A DNA stretch of 64,000 bases from an uncultured Elusimicrobiales bacterium (GTDB lineage: Bacteria > Elusimicrobiota > Elusimicrobia > Elusimicrobiales > Elusimicrobiaceae). Where the stretch lies: assembly GCA_944324675.1 (NCBI GenBank), contig CALUXE010000001.1:132694-196693 (forward strand), given 5' to 3'. Positions 6,090 through 21,716 of the stretch are shown here, piece by piece (position 1 is the stretch's first letter; each line of letters begins with the position of its first letter). The notes beneath the pieces were generated by a model that searched no databases, was not told the DNA's origin, and saw only the letters and a program-made list of their open reading frames with translations. Both the position numbers and the translations under genes were made by a program.

Positions 6090-9000
6090 CTAAGAATGAA
6101 ACAAATATCTTTGCAAAAACGGCTTTAAAGACGGTATATTATTCACGCTTTCGCTGGCAAGCAAGAAGCCTTTAACCGTGCCTTTTCCGTCTTTTATCTC
6201 CACCACATGCCACATAAGATTCACCTTGCTGCCGTCGATTATATTTATATCAAACAAGAAATCGAACGCCCCGCCTTTAGACGCGTTATACGCGCTCTTG
6301 AAATCGCCCTCCGCTTTTAGGCTGTCATAGGCGAACTTAGCGAAAATATTCTGATCTTCCGCTTCCACGATGTCGTATATGCCGCAAATATTGCGCATGA
6401 CGCCGTTTAAATTCTTTATTTTGTAATTTTCGTCTATTATAGCGGCGGGGACATCCAAACTCGACGCCAAGCGCCTAAGCGCGCCCAAGCTGTTGTCCAC
6501 GGCTTTTTGGTTTTGTCGGATTTCCAAAGCCATGCTCATAAGACCGCCGACAAAACTAATAAAACTCTTATCCTCGTCGGTCATCGGCATGGTGTTCTTC
6601 TTTACGCTTACAAAAGCTATCGCCCCCTCCACTTTGCCCGCTATATACAACGGAGCGGCTATTATCGAACTTATCCCCCTCTTTACATGCAGACATCTTA
6701 CGCACTTTAAAGGGGAAGTGTCGCGGCAGGCGTATATTTTACCCTCTTGAATATCGCGGAAACATTCCTCGACAACGGTTTCTATGCCTTTCTTTATATC
6801 GTAAGGGTTATCCGTGGCATAGTTTATCAATATCTTATCACGGTTGCGCCCGCTGAAATGCATTATCAAGCCCACTTCCGCGCCGAATATCTGTTTTCCG
6901 TACTCAAGAACGTCTTTCATATTCTCCACAAAGCCGCGCTGCTTTCGGGAGGAGAAATCATAAAGATGATGGATTTTGTTCTCCAGGCCTTTACGCCTGT
7001 CTACGTTCTCCACGAGCATCACTACGCTGTCCTCTCCTTCCAAACGGGATATGGAAGCCTCATAAAATTTGGATTCCCCGCCGCTCTTCATCGAAAAGCT
7101 CGCCTGCGAGGGTACTCCCGTCTTATAGGCCTGTTTTATATTTTCCAAAAGCAAATCGCCCTCTTCTTTGCTTAAAAACTCCTGTATCGGATGGCCCAAG
7201 TAGTCCGAGGGAAATACCGCTATATCATAACCCGCTTCCGCCGTTTGATACTCCTGGATTATTCCCTTGGAGTCCAATTTGATATACAGGCCGGGCAAAA
7301 TATTCTTCACGCCCTTCAACTCTTTAAGTTTGTAATCCAGTTCCGAGGCAAGCTGGCGCTCCTTGCTGGCGTCGCGTATTACTATTACGGCTTTTTCGCC
7401 GTCGCCGCTTCTAAAAGAGCTTATCCTTACTACCGCCGCTTTTTTACGCCCCTTAATATTCAGCATCGCTTCAAACGAGACCAATTTATCCTTCTTTAAA
7501 AGCTCCGTCTTGGAGGCCAAGTAAACCTCCACCTTTTTAGCCTCCTTCCTTTCTTTGTCGACAAGCAAATCAAACAGACTTAACTTCATAAGCTCATCCA
7601 AGGAATAGTCCGTAAAGGAGCAGGCCTCGGCGTTGGCCTTCGTAAAGGAAGAAAGTTTTTTATCCTTTATATCGCATTCCAGCAAAGCGCCGTCCACTAT
7701 CTGCGCAAGCGCTTGGGCATATTGGCTTCTTTCGTCAAGAACATTTAAAAGCTGCTTTTTGGCGCTTATGTTCCTAAATGAAATGATGAAATTGTTATTC
7801 TTGGCCAATATGGCGTTGGCTTCAACTTCCACTCCGGAATTTTCGCCTTTCTTTATTCTATAATCCCTGCTCCTTACTGCGCCGTGATTATAAACCTCCG
7901 CCATATCCAGTTCCAGGGCGGCTTTGTCGCGCGGAGTAAACAGCGAAGCCAAAGGTTTGGAATACAAGTCCGCGAAGTTTATCCCAAAAAGCTGTTCCGC
8001 CCTTTTGTTGCATTTTAAAATAAGGCCCTCCTTTGAACAAAGCAATACCGCCTCTTGGTAGCTTAGCATATCCTCGGCGGCTACGGCGCTGTCTTCCGGG
8101 GTTATCTCTTTTGAGTTCTTGTCCGGAGTCAGTTGCAAAATATAATCGCACACCGTTTTGCCTCCGCTTAAAGTCCTTTCGTTTACGGGCGTCATTGCGA
8201 CTTTTAAAGGCATTACGCCGCTTTTGTTCAAACCGCTGAGCGTTTTTTTCAGCCTGTCGAAATTTATCTTGCCGTCAAATACGCAAGGCTCCATAGCGGC
8301 CATCGCCCGCCGCGCTTTCAACGGAAGGCCCGGCTTTATAAATATGCTGCCGTACAAGGCTTTATCATCCTTGGTAAAACCCAAAATATCCCGCGCCGCG
8401 CGGTTCATTTCGTAAATGTACCCGTTGTGCTGCAGAATTATAAGGGGAATGGTAGTCCCTTCAAAAACACTGCGGAATCTGTCGTCCTTCGCTTTGGCCT
8501 TATTCTCCATACTGCGCTCCTTGGTTATATTCCTTAAGAACATTATCACTATTTTCTTGCCCAAATATTTGGATATCGCCGCGGAAACCTCAAACTCAAA
8601 CACCTCGTCTTTGTTTTTGTTGTCCATCTTGACAAAAGCGTAATCGCTGGCCGCGGTTCCGGCGAATACTTTGTCGTAAAATTCGCGCGCGACGTCCTCG
8701 CTCCCGGCGGAAGCCAATTCGTAAAAGCTCTTGCCTTTTACGTCGTATTCTTCATATCCGAGAGAATTAAGCAAAGTTTTGTTCGCGAAAGATATTTTAC
8801 CCTGCTCTATTATTAGTATGCCCTCTTTGCAGTTTTCCACCAAAAGCGAATACTTGCTGCGGGATTCATATACCTGCCGCTCCATCTTGCTCTTGGCCGT
8901 GATGTCTTCCGATACGCCCAAAAGACAATTAGGCGTTCCGTCGGCAAAGAAAAGCGGGGTTTTTACCGTATGCATTATTTTTATCTCACCGTCTTGCGTG

Positions 9001-10835
9001 GAAATAAGCTCCTGCGGAATATCAAGTTCTCTTTTCGCGTCAAACACTTTTTGGTCCTGCATGCGAATAAACTCTTCCTGTTCGGGATTTATTTTATCGT
9101 TATGCGTGGTTTTGCCGATAACTTCTTGCGCATTTTTCCCAAAAACTTCCCCGCATTTTTTGTTCCAAAGTATATATTCGCCGGTATATTTCTTGGCGTA
9201 AAGCGCTACCGGCAGGTTATTGATTATTTCCTGCAAGAAATTCTTATAGTGCAGGACCTCGCGTTCCCGCTCGTATGCGGAGGTTATGTCCTCCCCTATG
9301 GTAACGACAAGAAAAGCTTTCCCACCCTTATCGGATATGGGCGATTTTACCGCCCGGACAATTCTCTTCTTTCCGTCGACGCCGGTATATTCTTCTTCCG
9401 GCATGTAAAGCACCTTCCCCTTCTTTAAAACGCTAAGGTCTCTTTTTTTGTAAAAATCTTTCTGTTCTTCCGTGGCTTCTTCGGAAGGCTCTCCGCCGGC
9501 CCCGTAGATCTCCATAGTTTTTTTGTTGCGGAATATTATGTCGCCGCCGGCGTCCCGCGCGTATATGGCTACGGGTGCGTCGTTAACTATCGCCTGAAGG
9601 ATATTGCTGGTCTTGGTGCCTTCCCGCTCTTGTATGTATTTTTCGGTCATATCCTGCGCGATGGTAAGCACGCAGGGCGGGAAAGCGGAACTTTCCGGTA
9701 TGGGAACTTTTATCAAATCCAAAATTATTTTGCCGCCGCTCTTTAAAGGGTATTCCTGAGCGGAACAAAACACGACTTTGCCTTCCTTGATAATCTCCTT
9801 CTCCACGGCAAGGCATTTCTTGGTATTTTCTTTGGTTTCGTGTAAGAGGCCCCTTTCCCCTTCAACAGTAAAGTTGTCGGCGAAGATTTCCTCCGTTTTC
9901 TTATTCCAAAACAAAATATTTCCTTTGTCGTCCCTGGTGTAAAAAGCCAAAGGGGCATAATCCAGTATCGTGCGGAGCAGATTTTTGGTTAGGACGGTCT
10001 TTTCTTCCTGCCGTCTTTTGGCGGTAATATCTTCAAAAACGCTCAAGACCATTCCCCTCTTGCCCGTTTGCCCCGAAAGAGGCATCTTGTTTACCGAATA
10101 GAATTTAACTTCCCCGTTTTTATTTTTAAAACTAAATTCCGCGCCCTCCAAAGCGCGGTTGTTTTTAAGCGCGTCTTTATCCAAAGCGAAATCGTTTTTA
10201 AAAATCTGTTTGGGCATTTGATTCGGAGTTTGCTCAAACCCGCAATTCGAGCCCAAAAGCGTTTTGGCGGAATCGTTGGCGGCGACAATAAGGCCCGCAT
10301 CGTCGCGCACGAAGGAGGCGAACGGCAAAGCGGATGTCAATTGTTCAAGGCAATTGCCAAAGCGTAAAGATTCCGTTCCGACATTCCTAAAATTACAGGC
10401 CTTGCCGTCAATTGCGCTTATACTCAAGGAAGCGTATTTTTCTTTTTTGCCCGCCCCCAAATAGGATATGTCTATTTGGGCGTTGAAATTCTTCCCGTTA
10501 AAAGAAAGCGCGGAGGCGAAAAAAGCGCTATCCTCAAAACAAAAAGCGTCATCTGATTGGCGTTCAAAAACTTTATACTCGTCTTTGGGTATAATATCCT
10601 CAATGTTTTCAGGGATAGCGGCGGAACCCAACAAATTTATAAAAGCATTGTTCGCATATACCAATTTATTGGCTTTGGTTATGACGGCATAAGGCTGATT
10701 TAATTTGGATAATATTTTTACGGCTTCCCTCAATACCGTATCGGCCGCGAGCGCGGTTTTCTCTTTTTTGTCGCTACCAGAGATGATGTTTTTTACCGTT
10801 TTAAGGAAATTGTTTTCTTTATCTGTTTTAGCCAT
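6090..10835 (-). CDS. Giant multi-PAS/GAF sensor protein without output domain
   Basis: The 1581-residue soluble protein is almost entirely sensor modules. I count about eleven PAS domains at roughly residues 40-150, 165-280, 285-400, 410-525, 530-655, 660-775, 785-910, 925-1040, 1045-1165, 1170-1285 and 1460-1570. A GAF domain (about 1300-1450) carries cysteines in KCVRCLHV. Many PAS units end in the PAC-type motif (EDITAKR, QDMTEKY, EDITSAY, RNITKER, RNISAKK). No DHp/HATPase, GGDEF, EAL, HD-GYP, methyl-accepting or HTH domain follows; the protein stops just after the last PAS. No membrane segment is evident. GGAGG lies 7 bases before the ATG. It probably signals by protein contact; the partner is unknown. 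Confidence 0.9.
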   Translation of the reverse strand: MAKTDKENNFLKTVKNIISGSDKKEKTALAADTVLREAVKILSKLNQPYAVITKANKLVYANNAFINLLGSAAIPENIEDIIPKDEYKVFERQSDDAFCFEDSAFFASALSFNGKNFNAQIDISYLGAGKKEKYASLSISAIDGKACNFRNVGTESLRFGNCLEQLTSALPFASFVRDDAGLIVAANDSAKTLLGSNCGFEQTPNQMPKQIFKNDFALDKDALKNNRALEGAEFSFKNKNGEVKFYSVNKMPLSGQTGKRGMVLSVFEDITAKRRQEEKTVLTKNLLRTILDYAPLAFYTRDDKGNILFWNKKTEEIFADNFTVEGERGLLHETKENTKKCLAVEKEIIKEGKVVFCSAQEYPLKSGGKIILDLIKVPIPESSAFPPCVLTIAQDMTEKYIQEREGTKTSNILQAIVNDAPVAIYARDAGGDIIFRNKKTMEIYGAGGEPSEEATEEQKDFYKKRDLSVLKKGKVLYMPEEEYTGVDGKKRIVRAVKSPISDKGGKAFLVVTIGEDITSAYEREREVLHYKNFLQEIINNLPVALYAKKYTGEYILWNKKCGEVFGKNAQEVIGKTTHNDKINPEQEEFIRMQDQKVFDAKRELDIPQELISTQDGEIKIMHTVKTPLFFADGTPNCLLGVSEDITAKSKMERQVYESRSKYSLLVENCKEGILIIEQGKISFANKTLLNSLGYEEYDVKGKSFYELASAGSEDVAREFYDKVFAGTAASDYAFVKMDNKNKDEVFEFEVSAAISKYLGKKIVIMFLRNITKERSMENKAKAKDDRFRSVFEGTTIPLIILQHNGYIYEMNRAARDILGFTKDDKALYGSIFIKPGLPLKARRAMAAMEPCVFDGKINFDRLKKTLSGLNKSGVMPLKVAMTPVNERTLSGGKTVCDYILQLTPDKNSKEITPEDSAVAAEDMLSYQEAVLLCSKEGLILKCNKRAEQLFGINFADLYSKPLASLFTPRDKAALELDMAEVYNHGAVRSRDYRIKKGENSGVEVEANAILAKNNNFIISFRNISAKKQLLNVLDERSQYAQALAQIVDGALLECDIKDKKLSSFTKANAEACSFTDYSLDELMKLSLFDLLVDKERKEAKKVEVYLASKTELLKKDKLVSFEAMLNIKGRKKAAVVRISSFRSGDGEKAVIVIRDASKERQLASELDYKLKELKGVKNILPGLYIKLDSKGIIQEYQTAEAGYDIAVFPSDYLGHPIQEFLSKEEGDLLLENIKQAYKTGVPSQASFSMKSGGESKFYEASISRLEGEDSVVMLVENVDRRKGLENKIHHLYDFSSRKQRGFVENMKDVLEYGKQIFGAEVGLIMHFSGRNRDKILINYATDNPYDIKKGIETVVEECFRDIQEGKIYACRDTSPLKCVRCLHVKRGISSIIAAPLYIAGKVEGAIAFVSVKKNTMPMTDEDKSFISFVGGLMSMALEIRQNQKAVDNSLGALRRLASSLDVPAAIIDENYKIKNLNGVMRNICGIYDIVEAEDQNIFAKFAYDSLKAEGDFKSAYNASKGGAFDFLFDINIIDGSKVNLMWHVVEIKDGKGTVKGFLLASESVNNIPSLKPFLQRYLFHS

Positions 10836-11238
10836 ACCGATGCCTCCGTGCGGCGTTTTACGCAGCGCCTTAATGATACAATATTAAAAACTTAAACATT
10901 ATGCAAGAAGGTATAACATTAGGGCAGACAAAGGTAGAGCAAAAATACCTTCTGACAAGATGCTTCGTGAACTTTTTCGCCCCGAGGGCAACACTTTAAA
11001 GGCAAGCAAGCAAAGCCGGGGGGAAATTAATAAAAAATCAAGCCTCTTTCCATCGGGCGGATACTTTGGATGCCGTGGGGCCTTTTTGTTTTGAGCTTTG
11101 CATAGGCGAAAACAAAAAGGCCGCTTTTTAAGCGGCCTGCCGGTGAGGAGGATATTATGAAGTTTTAGGAGTATATTTTATGTGGTTTCGGGAGGATAGG
11201 CGGAGGGTGCACCGGCAAAAATTTTTAAATCCCTTCAC
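10836..11238. other. Intergenic stretch without a convincing gene
   Basis: About 400 bp between the PAS sensor and the 102-residue gene hold no supportable reading frame. They contain the minus-strand terminator at 11118-11138, an 11-12 bp inverted repeat flanking it (CCTTTTTGTTTT at about 11080 and AAAACAAAAAGG at about 11109), and two unexplained plus-strand Shine-Dalgarno/ATG pairs near 11145-11182. Confidence 0.6.
11118..11138 (-). terminator. Intrinsic terminator downstream of the 102-residue gene
   Basis: A 9-bp perfect stem (AGGCCGCTT / AAGCGGCCT) with a 3-nt loop is followed on the minus strand by TTTTTGTTTT. It lies about 100 bp downstream of the stop at 11239. Confidence 0.88.
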
Positions 11239-11547
11239 TTATTTGCTTATCTTATTTATGCTGACGATCCATTCTCTTTCTTTTTTCAGATATTTATTTT
11301 TTATTTTTTCCGGTATTCTGAGTTTTGCGCTGTCGCAGTAAAAACCTTTAACTTGATATTTGCCTATACGGAAATCCGGAACTCCATAAAAATATTTTTT
11401 TAGGGCTTTATCCAAAACGTCAAACTCCTTTGCCATCGGGGCCAAAGTTTCCCAACGCTGCAGAAGCTCCAACATAACTTTATATAGTCCCGCTCCGCTG
11501 CCGGAAAGATTAGCCTCGCGCCGTTCAATATTCAAAATATCCTTCAT
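11239..11547 (-). CDS. Hypothetical 102-residue protein divergent from a CI-like repressor
   Basis: This small charged, basic cytoplasmic protein has a predicted helical N-terminal half (LYKVMLELLQRWETLAPMAKEF) and a basic C-terminal half with RIPEKIKNKYLKK. The Shine-Dalgarno GGAGG lies 4 bases before the ATG, and a strong terminator follows the gene, so I take it as real. It has its own sigma70-type promoter (11727-11755) overlapped by operator half-sites and a structured leader of about 170 nt. I do not recognise the family. The context of a divergent phage-type repressor suggests a small regulator or prophage-derived accessory protein. Confidence 0.72.
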   Translation of the reverse strand: MKDILNIERREANLSGSGAGLYKVMLELLQRWETLAPMAKEFDVLDKALKKYFYGVPDFRIGKYQVKGFYCDSAKLRIPEKIKNKYLKKEREWIVSINKISK

Positions 11548-11561
11548 ACAACCTCCGCCTT

Positions 11562-11720
11562 AAAAAACGCCCGCGGAGCGCCGCTTTTTTTGCGGCAATC
11601 CTTTTTTGGGATTTGTGGGAGAGCCGTCTCGCCTCGGGGTCGAAAAACCCCGCTGCTTTTATCCGCGGGCGCAAGCCTGTGGCTTTTGTAGTTTGAAACG
11701 GTTTTTACCGTATCAAATCT
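11562..11720 (-). ncRNA. Candidate structured leader RNA / small ncRNA ending in a terminator
   Basis: Transcribed leftwards from the promoter at 11727-11755, this GC-rich stretch can fold into a chain of hairpins. They are ACGGT/ACCGT (11698-11711), AAGCC/GGCTT (11673-11685), and a 10-bp closing helix CGCCCGCGGA (11568-11577) with TCCGCGGGCG (11662-11671). The helix encloses at least three further stems: CGGGGT/ACCCCG (11635-11652), AATCC/GGATT (11597-11613) and GCCGC/GCGGC (11580-11596). The closing helix is followed at once by six T (11562-11567), then by the Shine-Dalgarno of the 102-residue gene. It could be a self-terminating small RNA, an attenuator or an unknown riboswitch. It matches no class that I recognise. 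Confidence 0.5.
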
Positions 11721-11778
11721 GATACAATCGTATCAAATATTTTTAGCTTTGTCAAATTTTCAGACGGTAAATTACCGT
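11698..11778. promoter_or_regulatory. Operator cluster between divergent promoters
   Basis: Two kinds of symmetric element occur. One is ACGGT-N4-ACCGT (11698-11711), with a second, longer copy ACGGTAA-N-TTACCGT at 11764-11778. The other is three alternating half-sites, GTATCA (11710-11715), TGATAC (11720-11725) and GTATCA (11730-11735), each separated by AATC and so spaced exactly 10 bp. They overlap the -10 of the leftward promoter and the -35 of the rightward promoter, as expected for autoregulation by the adjacent repressor. Confidence 0.7.
11727..11755 (-). promoter_or_regulatory. Sigma70-type promoter for the leader RNA and 102-residue gene
   Basis: On the minus strand TTGACA (11750-11755) is followed after 17 bp by TACGAT (11727-11732). 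Transcription would begin near 11720. The -10 lies inside the TGATAC/GTATCA operator array. Confidence 0.75.
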
Positions 11779-11826: not shown

Positions 11827-12471
11827 ATGAATTTGGGGCAAAAAATAGAACAGCTGCTTAAAATGACGGCCATGACCAAGGTGGAGCTTTCACGGAAGCT
11901 GGGCTTAAAAGATTCCAGCGTGGTGTCGCATTGGGTAAAAAATCGCTTTAAACCCGACCGCGACAATATGATAAAACTCTCCCACGTATTCGACAAGCCC
12001 GTTTCCTACTTTGCCGACGACGGCGTAACTTATTCCGTAGCGGAAAAGAGCGAGGAACCTTACGACAAAAAGATTTACGAACTTCTTTCCAATATGCCTT
12101 CCAGCCGCCCCATCGGCGTTTTAAACGAGATAAAGGAAGAATATTTCAACATTTATTATTATTCCCAGCCCGAAGAGTATTTACCCGTCATGTTGGAGGC
12201 AAAAGGCCAAACTCCTTTTGCCTTGAAAGTGGCAGATACGGCGGCATGCCCGTGGGCTAACAAAGGAGAATATTTGATATTCTGTCCTTCAGCGCAAATA
12301 ACCAACGGCAAGCTGGCGCTGGTAAAAACGGAAAAAGGTTTAAGCGTAAAGAAAGTATCTCTTTCCGCGTCAAAAGCGATGCTTGAAGACGGACGAAAGA
12401 ATATTGAACGCAGGCCGCGCGCCGAAGTTGAAATCGTAGCCCAGCTTTTGGCCTTTTACAGAAAACCTTAA
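11827..12471 (+). CDS. CI/LexA-like repressor: XRE HTH plus degenerate S24 domain
   Basis: The 214-residue protein has a Cro/CI-type helix-turn-helix at about residues 3-60 (KVELSRKLGLKDSSVVSHWV). The C-terminal domain from about residue 115 resembles S24/LexA peptidases. Where the family has GDSM with the serine nucleophile, this protein reads ADTAACP, so the serine is replaced by threonine. A lysine in SVKKVS is at the expected position of the general base. It would bind the flanking operators as a dimer and repress itself and the divergent transcript. With the changed nucleophile, RecA-stimulated self-cleavage looks unlikely, and release may need another signal or an antirepressor. Confidence 0.85.
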   Translation: MNLGQKIEQLLKMTAMTKVELSRKLGLKDSSVVSHWVKNRFKPDRDNMIKLSHVFDKPVSYFADDGVTYSVAEKSEEPYDKKIYELLSNMPSSRPIGVLNEIKEEYFNIYYYSQPEEYLPVMLEAKGQTPFALKVADTAACPWANKGEYLIFCPSAQITNGKLALVKTEKGLSVKKVSLSASKAMLEDGRKNIERRPRAEVEIVAQLLAFYRKP

Positions 12472-12559: not shown

Positions 12560-13912
12560 ATGATTATATTGTGTTTGAACTGCGGAAGCTCTTCCGTAAA
12601 ATACAGTCTTTTTGATTACACCAACAAAAGGAACATAGCCGTAGGGCTTATAGAACGCGTCGGCTACGAGAACGCCGCCATCACGCAGGAAGCACCCGGC
12701 AAAGATAAATTTGAACTTACTTTCAACTGCCCCGATTTTAAAACGGCCATAGAAAAAGTCCTCAACACTTTAACCGACAAGCAACACGGCGTAATTACTG
12801 ACATGAAGCAAATCAGCGCCGTAGGGCACAGAGTGGTACACGGCGGGCCTTTGGAAAAATCCATGCTCATCACGCCGGAAATCATCAATCTTTTAAAGAG
12901 CATTTCCGATTTGGCGCCGCTGCACAACCCCGCCAATGTACTTGGTATGGAAGCGGCGATAGCGGTAATGCCCGACATCAAACACGTAGTGGTGGCCGAC
13001 ACCGCCTGGCATATGACTATGCCCCCAAGCTCCTATATGTACGCTCTGCCGTATAAATGGTACGAGAAGTATAAAATAAGAAGATACGGCGCGCACGGCA
13101 CATCTTTCCTTTATAACGCCAAAAGAGCGGCAGTTTTACTTGGCAAGAACCCTTTTGACTGCAATCTTATAATATGCCATATCGGCAACGGCGCGAGCAT
13201 GAACGCCGTAAAGAACGGCGTATCTTTTGACACCAGTATGGGTTTGACGCCTCTTGAAGGCCTTATAATGGGCACCAGAAGCGGCGATTTTGACGCGTCG
13301 ATAGCGTTCCAGATGATGGAGCGGGAAAACATTTCGCCCAAGGACATGTACACGATAATAAACAAGAAATCGGGCGTACTGGGCATTACGGAAAAATATC
13401 AAGACAGGCGCGACATAGAAATCGCGGCGGAAAAAGGCGACGAGCGCTGCCAACTGGCCATAGATATGGAAACATACCGAATAAAGAAATACATCGGCGC
13501 ATACGCCGCGGCTTTGGGAAGAGTTGACGCCATAGTGTTTACGGCGGGCGTAGGCGAGCGCGCGCCGATATACAGGGAAAAAGCTTTGACGGGTTTGGAA
13601 TATATGGGCGTACACCACGACCATGATCGCGATTTCGCCGCTTTGACGAAAAACGCCGAGAGTTTGATTTCCACTCCCGACAGCCCGGTAAAAGTATTCG
13701 TCATACCCACCGACGAGGAAATCGTATACGCCGAAGACGTCGCGGCGATCTGCGAAGGCAGATACGACATACATACCAACTTCAAATATTCTTTTGAAGA
13801 CCCTTCTTATAGAAACAGCTTAAGGGACGAATCCTTAAAGAAAGAACTTAAAAAGAAACCTTTCTTAAGGAAATGCATAATAAACACTCCCAAAGAAATA
13901 CTTGAAGCGTAA
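12560..13912 (+). CDS. ackA: Acetate kinase with C-terminal extension
   Basis: This cytoplasmic enzyme interconverts acetyl phosphate plus ADP with acetate plus ATP. All family signatures are present: LNCGSSSVKY at the N-terminus, GHRVVHGG, APLHNP, the substrate loop ADTAWHMTMP, the phosphate loop HIGNGAS, GTRSGD and FTAGVGE. The C-terminal TDEE corresponds to the usual TNEE. At 450 residues it is about 50 longer than typical AckA; the excess is a lysine-rich tail after about residue 400. No phosphotransacetylase gene is adjacent. It lies alone on the plus strand and ends at a bidirectional terminator. It implies fermentative ATP generation. Confidence 0.96.
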   Translation: MIILCLNCGSSSVKYSLFDYTNKRNIAVGLIERVGYENAAITQEAPGKDKFELTFNCPDFKTAIEKVLNTLTDKQHGVITDMKQISAVGHRVVHGGPLEKSMLITPEIINLLKSISDLAPLHNPANVLGMEAAIAVMPDIKHVVVADTAWHMTMPPSSYMYALPYKWYEKYKIRRYGAHGTSFLYNAKRAAVLLGKNPFDCNLIICHIGNGASMNAVKNGVSFDTSMGLTPLEGLIMGTRSGDFDASIAFQMMERENISPKDMYTIINKKSGVLGITEKYQDRRDIEIAAEKGDERCQLAIDMETYRIKKYIGAYAAALGRVDAIVFTAGVGERAPIYREKALTGLEYMGVHHDHDRDFAALTKNAESLISTPDSPVKVFVIPTDEEIVYAEDVAAICEGRYDIHTNFKYSFEDPSYRNSLRDESLKKELKKKPFLRKCIINTPKEILEA

Positions 13913-16169: not shown

Positions 16170-19100
16170 CTACTTTATCGTATACTCGCTTTGGGCGGTG
16201 CGGCCGTATACCTCCGGCCAATACATCGCGTTGACCCAAGCGGGCGGCACCTTAAACGCCCCTGAAGTCGAGGCCGTAACCGTATACTTAAACTTATATA
16301 CGCCCTGCGGCATATAATCGGCGAAAGCGACGATGCTGTCGTCGTAAATCTCGCGCCTGATAAACGGATCGGCGCTTTGCTCTTCATCTTCGCCTCCAGG
16401 CTGGGGGAGGATGCCTTCCGTCGCTAAAGTTTCGTCCACGATTTCAAAACCCGCGGGCAGATAATCCTGCAAAGCCACGAAAGTCCTGTCCTGGTCGGTG
16501 GATACGGTTATGATTATCTCCGCCCGCTCGCCTGCTTTAAGGTCTTTTTTCCCGCCCAGCGGCTTTATCTCTTTAGATACCCTGAAGCCAGCCGACACCG
16601 CGCTCTTAAGAGACTGCGGATAATAGGACATTCCCAAGCTGTAATAGAGATTGCCCTCGCCCTCTTTGCCGACGTTTAACGCCGCTTCGCGTTTGTCTTT
16701 GAAGAATTCCTTAAAATTCTTCTCAAACACGCCCGATTCCTGCTTGCGGCCTTTAAACGAGACGTCGAAAATATTTTTACCGTCCTGTTTTAAGAACGCT
16801 TTGAAATCCGGCTCTTGGCTTTCGTTCTTGCGGTAATAGGCGTTATAAGCCCTTATCGCGGCGGCATTGTTTAAAGTATTTCCGAAGCTGCCGTCCTCCC
16901 TCAAAGAAGAATTAAGATACGCAACCGCCTTGTAATCCTGCGGGAACGGCGCGTTTGTAGAGAGCAAAGCCTCCAAAGCCAAGGCCGTAGCTCTTATATC
17001 GGAAGTATAGAGCCAGGAATAAGCCTTCGGCGCCTGGAAGTATACGCCCCGCTCGGATACTCTGCCGTAGTTCATAATATCGGCGTAAAGCGCTTTGTAG
17101 GCGCTATCCTGCTTCAATATATACGCCGCCTTAAACAGATATATTTTGGCTTCCAGATCTAGGTTCTGGTTCTGGGCGTATACATTGCTGAAATGGCCGC
17201 CAGCGTTCGCGCCGCTTAAAGCCAAAGCGTAAACGGCGTAAGCGCGCAAAGTGCCGCTTTCCGAAGAACCGTAAGAGTAGGCAGATTTTTGGCTGCCCGA
17301 CAAATATTGATTAAGCCATGCCGCGGCTTTGTTTATAAGATCCTCGTCAACTTTAAACCCGTTTTCTTTGGCCGAAACCAATACGTCCACCGCGTAAGCC
17401 GTAACGAAAGGATCGGCCGAAAGCACATAAGGCCAATACGAGAAGCCGCCCGAAGCCGTCTGATAAGACACCAAAGCGTCCATAATATCGGTAACTTTTT
17501 GGTTTATTTCTTCGGCGGAGGCTATTTTGAACAAAGTCAAAATATCTTTGCCTGAAGTGTACAAAAGCAACTTTGAAAGGCGCTGTTCAAGGCAATCGTA
17601 AGGATAGTCTTTAAGGTATCTGGCCGCGCCCTGCGCGTTCAACAATACGCTTGAAGAGAACACCGCCCTTACGAAATTCTGCGAGTCCACCAGCGTATTG
17701 CTCGGCAACTGCAGTTTTTGAGTTTGCTCGCCTTGAGTCATATCGGAAGTATACGCGCTTTCCATACGCGAAATTTGTTTGACCGGGAGCGTCACCTCAA
17801 GCCCGTCATTATCCTTGGAAGAAGCCGCCTTAAACCCGAACACGGCCTTTTCGCCCGCACCCGCGAGGCACTGCCCTTCCACTTTAACGCTGCCGCCCGC
17901 GCCGATTTCCACTGTCTTGGGCGCGTCGGAGAGCAGGCTGACGGCGCCGGAAACTTTCATCTCCGTTTCCACCTTCAAAGCGTCCTTATCGGTATAGTTA
18001 TACACTATAAAACCGCAGGCGAATTTATCACCCTGTCTGGCAAAACGCGGCAGGAACGGTTTTATCATCAAAGGTTTTGAAACCTCTATCGAACTCTGGG
18101 CTTTACCGAATTGATCTTTAGTCGATGATACTGCCATAAGCCTGAATTTGGTCAAATTGTCAGGAGCCTTAAAACTTATCTCCCCGTTGCCCGCCTCGTT
18201 GGTCTGCAAAGAGGACGTAAACAAAGGCGTAAAGACAAAATTGCTCCTCAAATCCACGCCGCCAAGCTTGCTGTCTGAGCCGCCGCCGCCCCTGTTCTCG
18301 CCTTTCTGGCCGAAACTTCTCTGCCCGATTATGAACAGCCTGTTGTCGGACGTTTCCACCGCCAAAGGCCGCTTGGAATAGAAGTAGTCGAACGGATTGG
18401 GCGTATCGTATCCGCTTAAGGCGAGCATGGCCTCGTCCACCGCGAACACCGTTACGGAAGCGGGCATACCCTTGCCTTTATAATCCTCCGTTCTGACGGT
18501 CAAATTGACCGTTTGGCCGGGGCGGTATTCCGAGCGTTCCGGCGTAATATATGTTTTAAGCTTAAATTCTTTGGGCGGTACGTTCAATACGGCATAGCCG
18601 AATTTGGCCTGCGGCTTGGATAAATCCTCGCCGTCTTTGGCGTATTTTTGTTCCTCCGCTCTGCCCTGAACCAATACCACGCTGACAAAGGCGTTGGGGG
18701 CGTAATTTTCCCGCACCGGTATGCTCACCTTAGCCGCGCCGCCCTTTACCGTCTTTACGTAATGTTCCAATACGCCCTCGCGCTCTACCGTTATAAGGGC
18801 TTTGGCCTTTTTATAGGGCGACTTGATTAAAAGTTTCGCCTTGGATCCTATTTCATACTCGTCCTTGTCAAACGAAACGGAAAGCAAATCGTCGTCGGTT
18901 TGCTTCCAATAGGCGTCGCCCTCGGTAACGTAGAAGTAAAAATCGGTATAGTTTACGCGGCCCTGTTCATCCTGCGCTTTTAACGTAAGAATATAGCTGC
19001 CCGCCTTTTCAGGAACGAAACTCCACCGCGCTTTGCCGTCGGAGGCCGTTAAGGCAAAAGAGGATATGTCTTCCGATTTTTCCTCGCTTACCCATTCCAA

Positions 19101-21716
19101 CCTGCCCGCCACGCCCGTCTTGCGAACGCTGACGTACTCGCGCCTTCTCAAATTGCCCTGCAAAACCGCGCCCGCGCGAAGCTCGCCCGCCGAATTTACC
19201 GCGACTATATCAGCGGTAAAAGTCTTGCCGATTTCGCCCATATTGTCTTCGCTCTTGACTCCGATGAAAATATCCGCCGGCAATACGTTTACCGCCTTGC
19301 GCGCAAACAGCTGTTGGTTTTGCGGGCTTAATACTCCCGCCTGCACGTACAGAAGCCCAGCATAATTAATAGAAGGCATCGTAAAATCAAAGGTTTTGGA
19401 GCCTTTTTCGTCAAGCTCTATCTTGGATGAAAGCAAATCTTTCCCTTTTTCCGTAACCTCCTGCAAGAAAGAATAACTATCCCACCCTTTGGGAACATAG
19501 GCCGAAGCTATAAGATTAAACGATAAATCCACCGGCGCCCCGCCCAAGGCGCCGCCGAACATATACCTCGCCCCGATTGAAAATACAGCCCGTTCGCCGG
19601 AATAATACAGCTTGGAAAGAGGCGTCAGGTTGACCTCAAACTCCGCCGGCTTTACGGCCTCTACCCTGAACGATATTCCTTCCGTCCAATCCCCGCTTTC
19701 CAAACTTACGTTCCAATACCCGCTGGGCGAAGATGACGGCAGATCGTATTCATAATATAAAGTGGAGTCTTTCTCGTTTAAGGACAACTCCTTATTCAAG
19801 ACTTCCTTGCCTCTGGCGTCGCTTATTCTTAAGCGCGCCTGTTTGATATCCGCGTAATCAAATACGCCTTCTTTGAGAGAGCGAAGTATCCCCTTTATAT
19901 ATACCTTTTCCCCTTGGCGGTATATGCCCCTGTCGGTAAAGATGAAAGCCTTGAGCGAACTCTGAGGAGGATTCCAATCGTAGTTCAAATTGAAACGCCA
20001 GGGCTGTATTCCCTCGTTAAATTCGTTGGAGACCACCGCCACGTCCTCGCCCCGCTTTACAAATACCCATAACCTCGGCGTGCGCCAAGAATCCTCGTTT
20101 ACGGGCTTAAGTTCCGTCCAGCCGGGCGCAATGGCTATGCCGCGCTTATCCGTAACGCCGCGCCATAATACCTTGTTGGTCAAATCGCGGATTTCGACTT
20201 CCGCATTCTTTAACTCTTTTCCTTCTTTTAAATCCGCCGCCCATATCAATATGTTTGAGGGCGAACTCTTGAAGTTTACCCCTATGTCCGTAACATTATC
20301 AAAAGCGCTCTGCCAGCATTCCTCGGAATAATAGTGCTTGTTTAATATCTGCGTAAAAACAAAACCGTATTTCTTGCCGTTTAAAGCGGGCTCCAAATTG
20401 ATAAAAGTGCTGACGGAAAGATTCTTCTCCAAATTCGGCGTGATTATATTGGAAAGGAAATCGCCTTTAAGTTCCCTCTTGCGGCACCAGGGCGCTTCGT
20501 CTTTATAAAAATCGATAAAATCTTCATAGGAAACATTCTGTTTTTCCACTTCTATGCCGCCGGCGTTTATCGCTTTTATCGGATAGCGTACGGGCAGATA
20601 GCTTTCCAATACGCCAAAACCGCCTTTGAAATCTATTTTGGGGCAATAGCCTTCATTTGACCAAGTAAAAGTTACATCCTTGCCCAAAGTATTGCCGAAT
20701 ATGTCACGCAAATTCTTGCTTAAAGTTACCTTATAGCTTTGCCCCGCTTTAAATTCAAGCCCGCAAAGCTCAACCCTGTAAACCTGCGTATTGCCCCCTT
20801 TTTCGCTCTGTACCGTTCTGGACCAGCCGCTGCTGTCGGGATCGCACGGAGTATAACTTAAAGGAGGATCAAAAGTTATGTTCTTTGCTATCTCGCCCGC
20901 CGTTACGGGATTGCTGAAATCCAAGGAGGGCGAAAACGGCAGACACTGCGCCTGCGGCTCGCCAGCCAAAGCCAAAGGGCCGTAAGTATAGAACTTTATC
21001 GTTTTGTCGGCCGACATACCCAATGCGCCGACTTTGGCCAAAAGACCCTTCTTCAAAACCAAATTGTATTCTTTGCCTTCCTCAAGGTTTACGGCAGGCT
21101 CAAAAACGTATACGCTTTCTTTGTTAAAACCGGAATATTGAAATTCTTTATTATAAAGTTCGTCGTCAATTTTGCTTATTTTTAAAGGAACGGACACATT
21201 GCCCTGCATAAGTTTGGCGTAAGAATAAATACGCCTTAAATCCAGTTCCATATTGAACGCTACCATTATCTTAGGCCTTAGCGAAAGCCATCTCTCGCCG
21301 TCGTAAGGACGGCTTGCGCGCACCGCCGGGCGGGCCGTTTCGAACGACCAGCTGTACGCTTTGGAAAGTTTGCTGCCGTCTACGCCGCTCTTAAAACCGG
21401 CAGGCAGGGTTACGGTATATTTCGTCGCGGTGGCAAGCGGTTTTGACGGAGTGAAAGTTAAAGTCTGCGTGCCGACCCATCGGCAGGTTCCTTCAACCGA
21501 GGGGCTTATTTTTATGGGACAATTATCGCTCTCCTGCTGATTATCCCCGCTTAAAGAAGCGGCGGGCCTGTCAAACGTTACCGATATTACCCCATCGGTC
21601 AGCTGTTCGTTTAACTGACCCATCGGTCGTTTTGATATTACGTTAAGCCCCGCACTGTACGCGTTTGCCGCAAATAAAATAAATCCCAATAACAGAAAAG
21701 TAAACGGCCTTTTCAT
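16170..21716 (-). CDS. yfhM: Bacterial alpha-2-macroglobulin (YfhM type)
   Basis: The protein has about 1848 residues. A signal peptide (FLLLGFILFAANAYSA) is followed by repeated MG-type beta domains, a bait-region/MG core with YRPGQTVNLTV, and the thioester motif CLEQ (Cys about residue 1375) in the alpha-helical TED domain. A C-terminal receptor-binding-like domain (LQDYLPAGFEIVDE) completes it. Bacterial A2Ms trap proteases and are thought to protect the envelope together with PBP1C, which repairs damage. No lipobox cysteine follows the signal peptide, so this form is probably soluble in the periplasm, unlike the E. coli lipoprotein. I chose the ATG at 21716 because GGAGG lies 7 bases upstream. 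Confidence 0.94.
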   Translation of the reverse strand: MKRPFTFLLLGFILFAANAYSAGLNVISKRPMGQLNEQLTDGVISVTFDRPAASLSGDNQQESDNCPIKISPSVEGTCRWVGTQTLTFTPSKPLATATKYTVTLPAGFKSGVDGSKLSKAYSWSFETARPAVRASRPYDGERWLSLRPKIMVAFNMELDLRRIYSYAKLMQGNVSVPLKISKIDDELYNKEFQYSGFNKESVYVFEPAVNLEEGKEYNLVLKKGLLAKVGALGMSADKTIKFYTYGPLALAGEPQAQCLPFSPSLDFSNPVTAGEIAKNITFDPPLSYTPCDPDSSGWSRTVQSEKGGNTQVYRVELCGLEFKAGQSYKVTLSKNLRDIFGNTLGKDVTFTWSNEGYCPKIDFKGGFGVLESYLPVRYPIKAINAGGIEVEKQNVSYEDFIDFYKDEAPWCRKRELKGDFLSNIITPNLEKNLSVSTFINLEPALNGKKYGFVFTQILNKHYYSEECWQSAFDNVTDIGVNFKSSPSNILIWAADLKEGKELKNAEVEIRDLTNKVLWRGVTDKRGIAIAPGWTELKPVNEDSWRTPRLWVFVKRGEDVAVVSNEFNEGIQPWRFNLNYDWNPPQSSLKAFIFTDRGIYRQGEKVYIKGILRSLKEGVFDYADIKQARLRISDARGKEVLNKELSLNEKDSTLYYEYDLPSSSPSGYWNVSLESGDWTEGISFRVEAVKPAEFEVNLTPLSKLYYSGERAVFSIGARYMFGGALGGAPVDLSFNLIASAYVPKGWDSYSFLQEVTEKGKDLLSSKIELDEKGSKTFDFTMPSINYAGLLYVQAGVLSPQNQQLFARKAVNVLPADIFIGVKSEDNMGEIGKTFTADIVAVNSAGELRAGAVLQGNLRRREYVSVRKTGVAGRLEWVSEEKSEDISSFALTASDGKARWSFVPEKAGSYILTLKAQDEQGRVNYTDFYFYVTEGDAYWKQTDDDLLSVSFDKDEYEIGSKAKLLIKSPYKKAKALITVEREGVLEHYVKTVKGGAAKVSIPVRENYAPNAFVSVVLVQGRAEEQKYAKDGEDLSKPQAKFGYAVLNVPPKEFKLKTYITPERSEYRPGQTVNLTVRTEDYKGKGMPASVTVFAVDEAMLALSGYDTPNPFDYFYSKRPLAVETSDNRLFIIGQRSFGQKGENRGGGGSDSKLGGVDLRSNFVFTPLFTSSLQTNEAGNGEISFKAPDNLTKFRLMAVSSTKDQFGKAQSSIEVSKPLMIKPFLPRFARQGDKFACGFIVYNYTDKDALKVETEMKVSGAVSLLSDAPKTVEIGAGGSVKVEGQCLAGAGEKAVFGFKAASSKDNDGLEVTLPVKQISRMESAYTSDMTQGEQTQKLQLPSNTLVDSQNFVRAVFSSSVLLNAQGAARYLKDYPYDCLEQRLSKLLLYTSGKDILTLFKIASAEEINQKVTDIMDALVSYQTASGGFSYWPYVLSADPFVTAYAVDVLVSAKENGFKVDEDLINKAAAWLNQYLSGSQKSAYSYGSSESGTLRAYAVYALALSGANAGGHFSNVYAQNQNLDLEAKIYLFKAAYILKQDSAYKALYADIMNYGRVSERGVYFQAPKAYSWLYTSDIRATALALEALLSTNAPFPQDYKAVAYLNSSLREDGSFGNTLNNAAAIRAYNAYYRKNESQEPDFKAFLKQDGKNIFDVSFKGRKQESGVFEKNFKEFFKDKREAALNVGKEGEGNLYYSLGMSYYPQSLKSAVSAGFRVSKEIKPLGGKKDLKAGERAEIIITVSTDQDRTFVALQDYLPAGFEIVDETLATEGILPQPGGEDEEQSADPFIRREIYDDSIVAFADYMPQGVYKFKYTVTASTSGAFKVPPAWVNAMYWPEVYGRTAQSEYTIK

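Follow-up and report, generated by a model that had tools for sequence, protein, structure and literature searches.

A structured RNA of gut Elusimicrobiaceae, predicted to be repressor-gated and to act in trans on the leaders of putative gene transfer agent operons

The analyzed stretch of DNA (the window) comprises 64,000 nucleotides (nt) of contig CALUXE010000001.1 (assembly GCA_944324675.1, positions 132,694 to 196,693) from an uncultured Elusimicrobiales bacterium of the family Elusimicrobiaceae, whose genome (G000) measures 1.4 Mb. Our subject is a structured RNA encoded on its minus strand at 11567-11672, with the 5' end at the high coordinate, between a divergent phage-type repressor gene and a gene for a 102-residue protein (ORF1, for open reading frame 1). 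Comparison of this locus among related genomes suggests that the RNA is controlled by the repressor and acts in trans, and makes it fairly likely that it switches on the operons of a putative gene transfer agent (GTA) by antitermination.

The RNA core forms a five-way junction of helices P1-P5 and scores 97.9 bits with our covariance model R1. A preliminary description of the region had proposed several hairpins upstream of the 102-residue gene, including a 10-bp GC helix, and its sequence, fold and coordinates were borne out: positions 11568-11577 and 11662-11671 (CGCCCGCGGA and TCCGCGGGCG) form a helix that encloses four hairpins, P2-P5. In the minus-strand model, the 5' strand of this closing helix P1 (11663-11672) pairs with its 3' strand (11567-11576); between them lie P2 (11631-11656), which is variable in sequence and length, P3 (11619-11630; GAGACGGCUCUCC), P4 (11597-11613) and P5 (11580-11596), which has the form GCCGC-A7-GCGGC and, in the alignment, a nearly invariant stem. 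P3 with its 3' extension (GAGACGGCUCUCCC, 11617-11630) constitutes the invariant core, and contains the proposed 12-nt target-pairing segment GACGGCUCUCCC (11617-11628). A 5'-proximal hairpin (UUUGAUACGGU..ACCGUUUCAAA, 11692-11717), the 5' strand of which overlaps the operator described below, was also seen, with altered stems, in relatives.

The minimum free energy of the 181-nt minus-strand region (-72.6 kcal/mol) is far below that of dinucleotide shuffles (-51.9 +/- 4.5 kcal/mol; z -4.55; reached by 0 of 200). The plus strand is also of low energy relative to shuffles (z -4.15), so that folding energy alone cannot assign the strand. We assigned the RNA to the minus strand because its promoter, ORF1 and the relatives all share this orientation. 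The promoter (11727-11755) consists of TTGACA (11755-11750), a 17-nt spacer and an extended -10 element TACGAT (11732-11727), and has the same layout in the relatives.

The unit of divergent repressor gene, RNA and ORF1 is kept in 16 Elusimicrobiaceae genomes from three genera, where ORF1 is always accompanied by the repressor gene, with the RNA between the two. The fold, predicted separately for each genome, is the same in 15 of the 16; the RNA of G020 lacks P4 and P5. In the model-based alignment, 92% of the cells are paired overall. Compensatory changes in the 10-bp closing helix had been set beforehand as a test of the RNA, and both-sided changes were found in nine of the ten P1 pairs (98.6% of cells paired), as well as in five of the seven modelled pairs of P2 and three of the five pairs of P4. 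The covariation score was reached by none of 500 shuffles, and sliding the partners destroyed the signal in all slid controls. The refuting outcome that the preliminary description had named therefore did not occur; there is strong support for its proposal of a discrete, structured ncRNA, and that the RNA is real and conserved is nearly certain. The conserved parts are P3 and the P5 stem, and the GC helix P1 varies by compensation. The string GACGGCUCUC was found in 16 of 16 relatives, among which the P3 sequence is invariant; the P5 stem hardly varies, and the P5 loop is altered in G002, G003, G004 and G011. A loop-loop kiss between the T-rich loop of P2 and the A7 loop of P5 had also been suggested. 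We rejected it, since the pairing is not conserved and some relatives, G017 and G005 among them, have no such U-rich loop.

The RNA lies directly 5' of ORF1 in all 16 relatives, as would be expected of a leader acting in cis (a riboswitch, an attenuator or a site for autoregulation by a protein) and serving this gene only. Six T had been reported immediately after the helix. They are indeed present on the minus strand (11567-11562), as six U after P1 (11562-11567), in G000, G001 and G008; elsewhere the run is broken or absent. The ribosome site of ORF1 lies downstream of P1 at variable spacing, and no conserved alternative pairing with it was seen in the relatives. Because the U run is not kept, no such pairing was seen and the targets matched by the invariant P3 lie at other genomic sites, attenuation of ORF1 is not supported as the conserved function of the element; the same holds for the earlier reading of it as a terminator or riboswitch for that gene. 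A leader acting only in cis also leaves the match of the invariant segment to the leaders of unlinked particle operons unexplained, and we consider it quite improbable.

The divergent gene (11827-12471, plus strand) encodes a helix-turn-helix protein with an S24-like domain (Pfam HTH_3; PHROG phage repressor), the presumed operator binder; its homolog in G010 matches Peptidase_S24 above the cut-off. Repressor alignment A7 has no conserved serine at the expected S24 catalytic site, a position judged by eye, and the domain may be without its catalytic residue. The -10 element and start site of the RNA promoter are covered by two operator palindromes that overlap each other, GTATCA-n4-TGATAC (11710-11725) and TGATAC-n4-GTATCA (11720-11735; 11710-11735 in total). 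The perfect operator TGATACNNNNGTATCA recurs only once more in the whole genome, in the promoter of a capsid operon, which has the same layout as the RNA promoter (TTGACA-17-TACATT). No wider regulon was found in this genome: operator matches with one or two mismatches are no commoner than those of a reversed control pattern.

The capsid operon starts with the gene for a 408-residue HK97-type capsid protein (PF05065), followed by head-tail genes, and homologs of the capsid protein with 62-97% identity were found in about 20 relatives. The portal gene is unlinked (G000:C1:67617), is followed by a prohead protease gene, and in G000 its operon has no operator. The proposed target leaders of the RNA in both operons lie outside the window. 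Capsid leaders were located via operator and gene searches, and portal leaders via a Pfam portal search and homologs; complementarity was not used. In nearly every RNA-bearing relative, the capsid leader begins with GGGAAGAGCCGUC, GGGAGAGUCGUC, GGAGAGUCGUC or GGGGAGUCGUC a few nt past the -10 element, and these starts are the complement of the P3 segment, with G-U pairs or a bulge. The portal leader of G000, UUGGAGAGCCGCCGCGAUUUUCGGCGGUUUUUU, is a terminator-like sequence with the P3 complement in its 5' arm, and the portal leaders of the relatives agree with it, including those of G018 and G020 from other genera. The leader complement is kept where the capsid promoter lacks the operator (G018, G025 and G020); in G019, neither leader nor RNA was seen.

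The predicted duplexes between the P3 segment and the leaders of the same genome have energies of -16 to -29 kcal/mol, compared with a background of about -8.5 +/- 3.5 kcal/mol. They rank 1-64 among 4000 genomic 30-mers, a pool that includes some of the leaders, so that rank 1 may be the leader itself. A pattern search of the G000 genome for other targets gave 12 matches; apart from the capsid and portal leaders, none of these looks genuine. Both P3 and the leaders are short GC-rich sequences, and a few portal leaders pair nearly as well with other parts of the RNA (-22.5 versus -24.7 kcal/mol for the portal leader of G000); the covariation could then be real and the complementarity a coincidence or a shared habit of GC-rich hairpins. 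Against this, the best-pairing 18-nt window along the 195-nt RNA falls on P3 in every one of the 29 RNA-leader pairs, the finding is shared by two unlinked operons, and one genome after another has the complement just past the -10 element; coincidence is thus a very remote explanation. As judged from these comparisons, P3 very likely pairs with the leaders of the putative GTA operons.

The P3 complement is the 5' arm of a hairpin followed by a U tract in 15 of 15 portal leaders and 12 of 17 capsid leaders (27 of 32). Pairing with P3 should therefore prevent formation of the terminator-like hairpin, and antitermination is the likely outcome at most of the leaders. In the model that we infer, the repressor bound to the operators 11710-11735 would silence the RNA promoter in the off state and, in most of the genus, would also occupy the capsid-operon promoter. 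Portal/protease transcripts, or leakage from the capsid promoter, would stop after about 30-55 nt at an intrinsic terminator with a GGRAGAGYCGYC-like 5' arm. Departure of the repressor would allow production of the RNA and the 102-residue protein; the five-way junction would present P3 to the leaders, and ORF1 (in some species also a second small protein, ORF2) may aid annealing or escort the polymerase. Since one repressor would control the RNA together with the capsid operon, the RNA would constitute a second lock, and the portal operon, having no operator in G000, would be held by its terminator only.

Several observations weigh against this model. The capsid leader of G000 pairs with P3 via a bulge and its portal leader via a mismatch; a simple terminator scan flags this portal leader and misses the capsid leader, for which RNAfold predicts a hairpin of -17.5 kcal/mol ahead of AUUUUUAUU. 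P3 is itself a closed 4-bp hairpin that must open to pair. The leader is present and no RNA was found in G014 (99% complete) and G016 (64%). The capsid leaders of G002, G003, G004, G011 and G014 have the complement and no U tract, so that another mode of action, perhaps at the level of translation, would be required in these. In three of them (G003, G011 and G014), the complement segment is predicted to pair with the start-codon region, an arrangement that might suit translational activation. Finally, a third operon, terS-terL, is only weakly complementary to P3 (ranks 37-381 of 4000). This operon is located at L338 (G000:C10, about 18913-20600, minus strand), where its leader has, in place of a terminator, a GCCGUC/GACGGC hairpin immediately before the AUG; a hairpin precedes the AUG in some genomes. 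The operon is possibly a third target, under translational control.

Complementarity alone is compatible with either sign of the RNA effect, and the five capsid leaders without a U tract offer no terminator to disarm. The RNA might pair with the leaders and destabilize or silence them, or the short terminated leader RNAs might be sponges, titrating the RNA and thereby tuning its action on ORF1. The CI RNA of phage P4 provides a precedent for the opposite sign, as its pairing with leader sites causes termination (PMC4825925). This other outcome is rather unlikely in view of the overlap of the complement with the terminator-like hairpins; moreover, the operator shared in G000 means that the RNA and the capsid operon should be expressed at the same time, as is more fitting for an activator than for a repressor.

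Alternatively, the antiterminator could be the 102-residue protein, perhaps with ORF2, the leader serving as a nut- or put-like loading site and P3 as a competitor or autoregulatory site. ORF1 always adjoins the RNA, and the GTA of Caulobacter crescentus is governed by a repressor, activators and a protein antiterminator: RogA represses gafYZ, GafZ antiterminates the GTA cluster, and GafY and IHF are also involved (PMC11150451). However, P3 is the complement of the leader sequence and does not resemble it, so that a single protein would need to read two different sequences. ORF1 matches no known family or fold: searches of Pfam, PHROGs, PADLOC and NCBIfam gave no match, and comparison of the predicted structures of ORF1 (AlphaFold2 (AF2) model, pLDDT 74) and ORF2 with the PDB gave nothing at E<0.001. 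We therefore regard a GafZ-like role of ORF1 as unlikely, and retain the RNA as the proposed antiterminator.

GTAs have been defined by proteins derived from caudoviricetes, endogenised genes often at several loci, vertical inheritance, and packaging and delivery of mostly random host DNA (PMC9662315). Among the particle proteins, Pfam identified capsid, head-tail connector, head completion and portal proteins of caudoviricete origin; protease and terminase were assigned by reading. In G000, the genes occupy several loci: capsid-tail on C14, portal-protease on C1 and terminase on C10. These loci keep their host neighbours in different genera: the capsid operon adjoins peptidase T in G000 and G020, and the portal gene adjoins ClpP in G000, G017 and G020. 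In line with vertical inheritance, a comparison of distance matrices shows that capsid distances correlate with acetate kinase distances (r 0.93, n=8) and with distances of the unlinked portal protein (r 0.95, n=13; p<0.002). The capsid gene is under strong purifying selection, with a ratio of nonsynonymous to synonymous substitution rates (dN/dS) of 0.04-0.07. By sequence, the particle genes agree with the corresponding parts of the definition, and the particles are probably a functional GTA that would transfer DNA.

In G019, which belongs to a different genus of the family, the terL gene and the portal and capsid genes lie side by side (L330, G019:C137), an arrangement that is perhaps ancestral and preceded the splitting of the operons. 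Second, distant copies of portal, capsid and terminase genes with 26-40% identity occur in G017:C39 and G007:C2 (L312, L313, L260, L261 and L351); they resemble ordinary prophages that exist alongside the GTA-like set.

Among 341 genomes of the phylum, strong matches to model R1 were restricted to genera g1 and g2 of one family; the RNA of G020 (genus g4) was recognized through its P3 motif. Ten weak R1 matches in the phylum were rejected as chance-like since they lack this motif. An Rfam scan, proposed in the preliminary description, detected only tRNAs at the gathering score within the window, and the element matched no family at gathering or permissive thresholds, its best permissive match being far below the cut-off. 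A pattern scan of 84,980 species genomes gave at least 118 stretches: the 13 Elusimicrobiota stretches with the unit score 64-105 bits, and the others, among the matches listed, score at most 22 bits and were taken as chance for this reason. The closely similar loci in named records are gut metagenome-assembled genomes of Elusimicrobiaceae. In viral contigs, the four pattern matches to the RNA were all due to chance, and no viral relative of the 102-residue protein was found.

ORF1 (11239-11547, minus strand), conserved in the 16 genomes and presumably cotranscribed with the RNA, has a dN/dS of 0.06-0.08 relative to its homologs in G008 and G001. In eight relatives it is followed by ORF2 (MDYLxARWFLVK..., about 110-163 residues, all helical in the model; L068:4364-4762, L069:4479-4892, L070:10014-10505, L071:11544-11969, L072, L073, L034 and L036), which has no family match and was not found downstream of ORF1 in G000. 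There, ORF1 is followed by a noncoding stretch (11118-11216, minus strand) with CU-rich anti-Shine-Dalgarno loops (11216-11139) and an intrinsic terminator (11138-11118). The anti-Shine-Dalgarno motifs CUUCAUAAUAUCCUCCU and CAUAAAAUAUACUCCU stand between arms GCCGGTG/CACCGGC in the region after ORF1 (11238-11118, minus strand); relatives without ORF2 carry a similar stretch, which could be antisense to the start regions of other mRNAs. The locus adjoins a gene for a 1581-residue protein that contains numerous PAS domains along with a GAF domain (6090-10835, minus strand). An acetate kinase gene (12560-13912, plus strand) flanks it in the window, as it does in several relatives; in G002, G011, G018, G020 and G025, the unit is located elsewhere. 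A toxin-antitoxin, retron or defence system was rejected, as neither a reverse transcriptase nor a toxin family is encoded close by and PADLOC gave only helix-turn-helix matches to the repressor. A diversity-generating retroelement, considered from the small protein, found no support.

In T-box leaders, a tRNA acting in trans favours antitermination of an intrinsic terminator, and the leader senses tRNA charging by its own large aptamer. Our system likewise would use an RNA in trans to favour antitermination; here the leader is only about 40 nt, and the structure resides in the trans-acting RNA. The same pairing geometry as that predicted for P3 and the leaders is found in synthetic small transcription activating RNAs (STARs), which bind a linear region together with the 5' half of a terminator (PMC5648800). 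STARs are engineered, whereas the Elusimicrobiota RNA carries its approximately 12-nt pairing segment within a five-way junction, would serve at least two unlinked operons, and presumably shares a transcription unit with a small protein. The P4 immunity RNA CI is likewise phage-related and controls termination of a viral operon by leader pairing, but it promotes termination and keeps the prophage off, whereas pairing here is predicted to prevent termination. Small RNAs (sRNAs) that modulate Rho-dependent termination (PMC6582626, PMC12691595) also alter premature termination by base-pairing in trans; they act through Rho, via translation or Rho access, whereas the terminators here look intrinsic. 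The closest biological parallel in logic is the control of the Caulobacter GTA, where a repressor-gated small regulatory operon also acts on scattered GTA operons through one antitermination step. The antiterminator there is the protein GafZ, thought to ride RNA polymerase, and not, as proposed here, an RNA; the phylum differs as well.

In the open-access literature, we found no account of such a system for a GTA or prophage of Elusimicrobium or Elusimicrobia, of antitermination at intrinsic terminators by a trans-acting sRNA, or of structured RNAs of this phylum, and no GTA described for it. The structured RNA presented here, from gut Elusimicrobiota, had not been named before. We see a little better than an even chance that it is the first natural trans-encoded sRNA to activate unlinked operons by base-paired disarming of intrinsic terminators, a GTA master switch that governs the whole particle (capsid, portal and perhaps terminase). 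Antitermination by an RNA in trans at intrinsic terminators has been built synthetically in the STARs. The natural case, if true, would mean that evolution makes use of this device as well, and would provide a ready, portable example of it. It would also add an RNA to the ways in which bacteria gate GTAs, whose release kills the producer cell and transfers DNA, and would suggest that Elusimicrobiota living in gut communities have a GTA.
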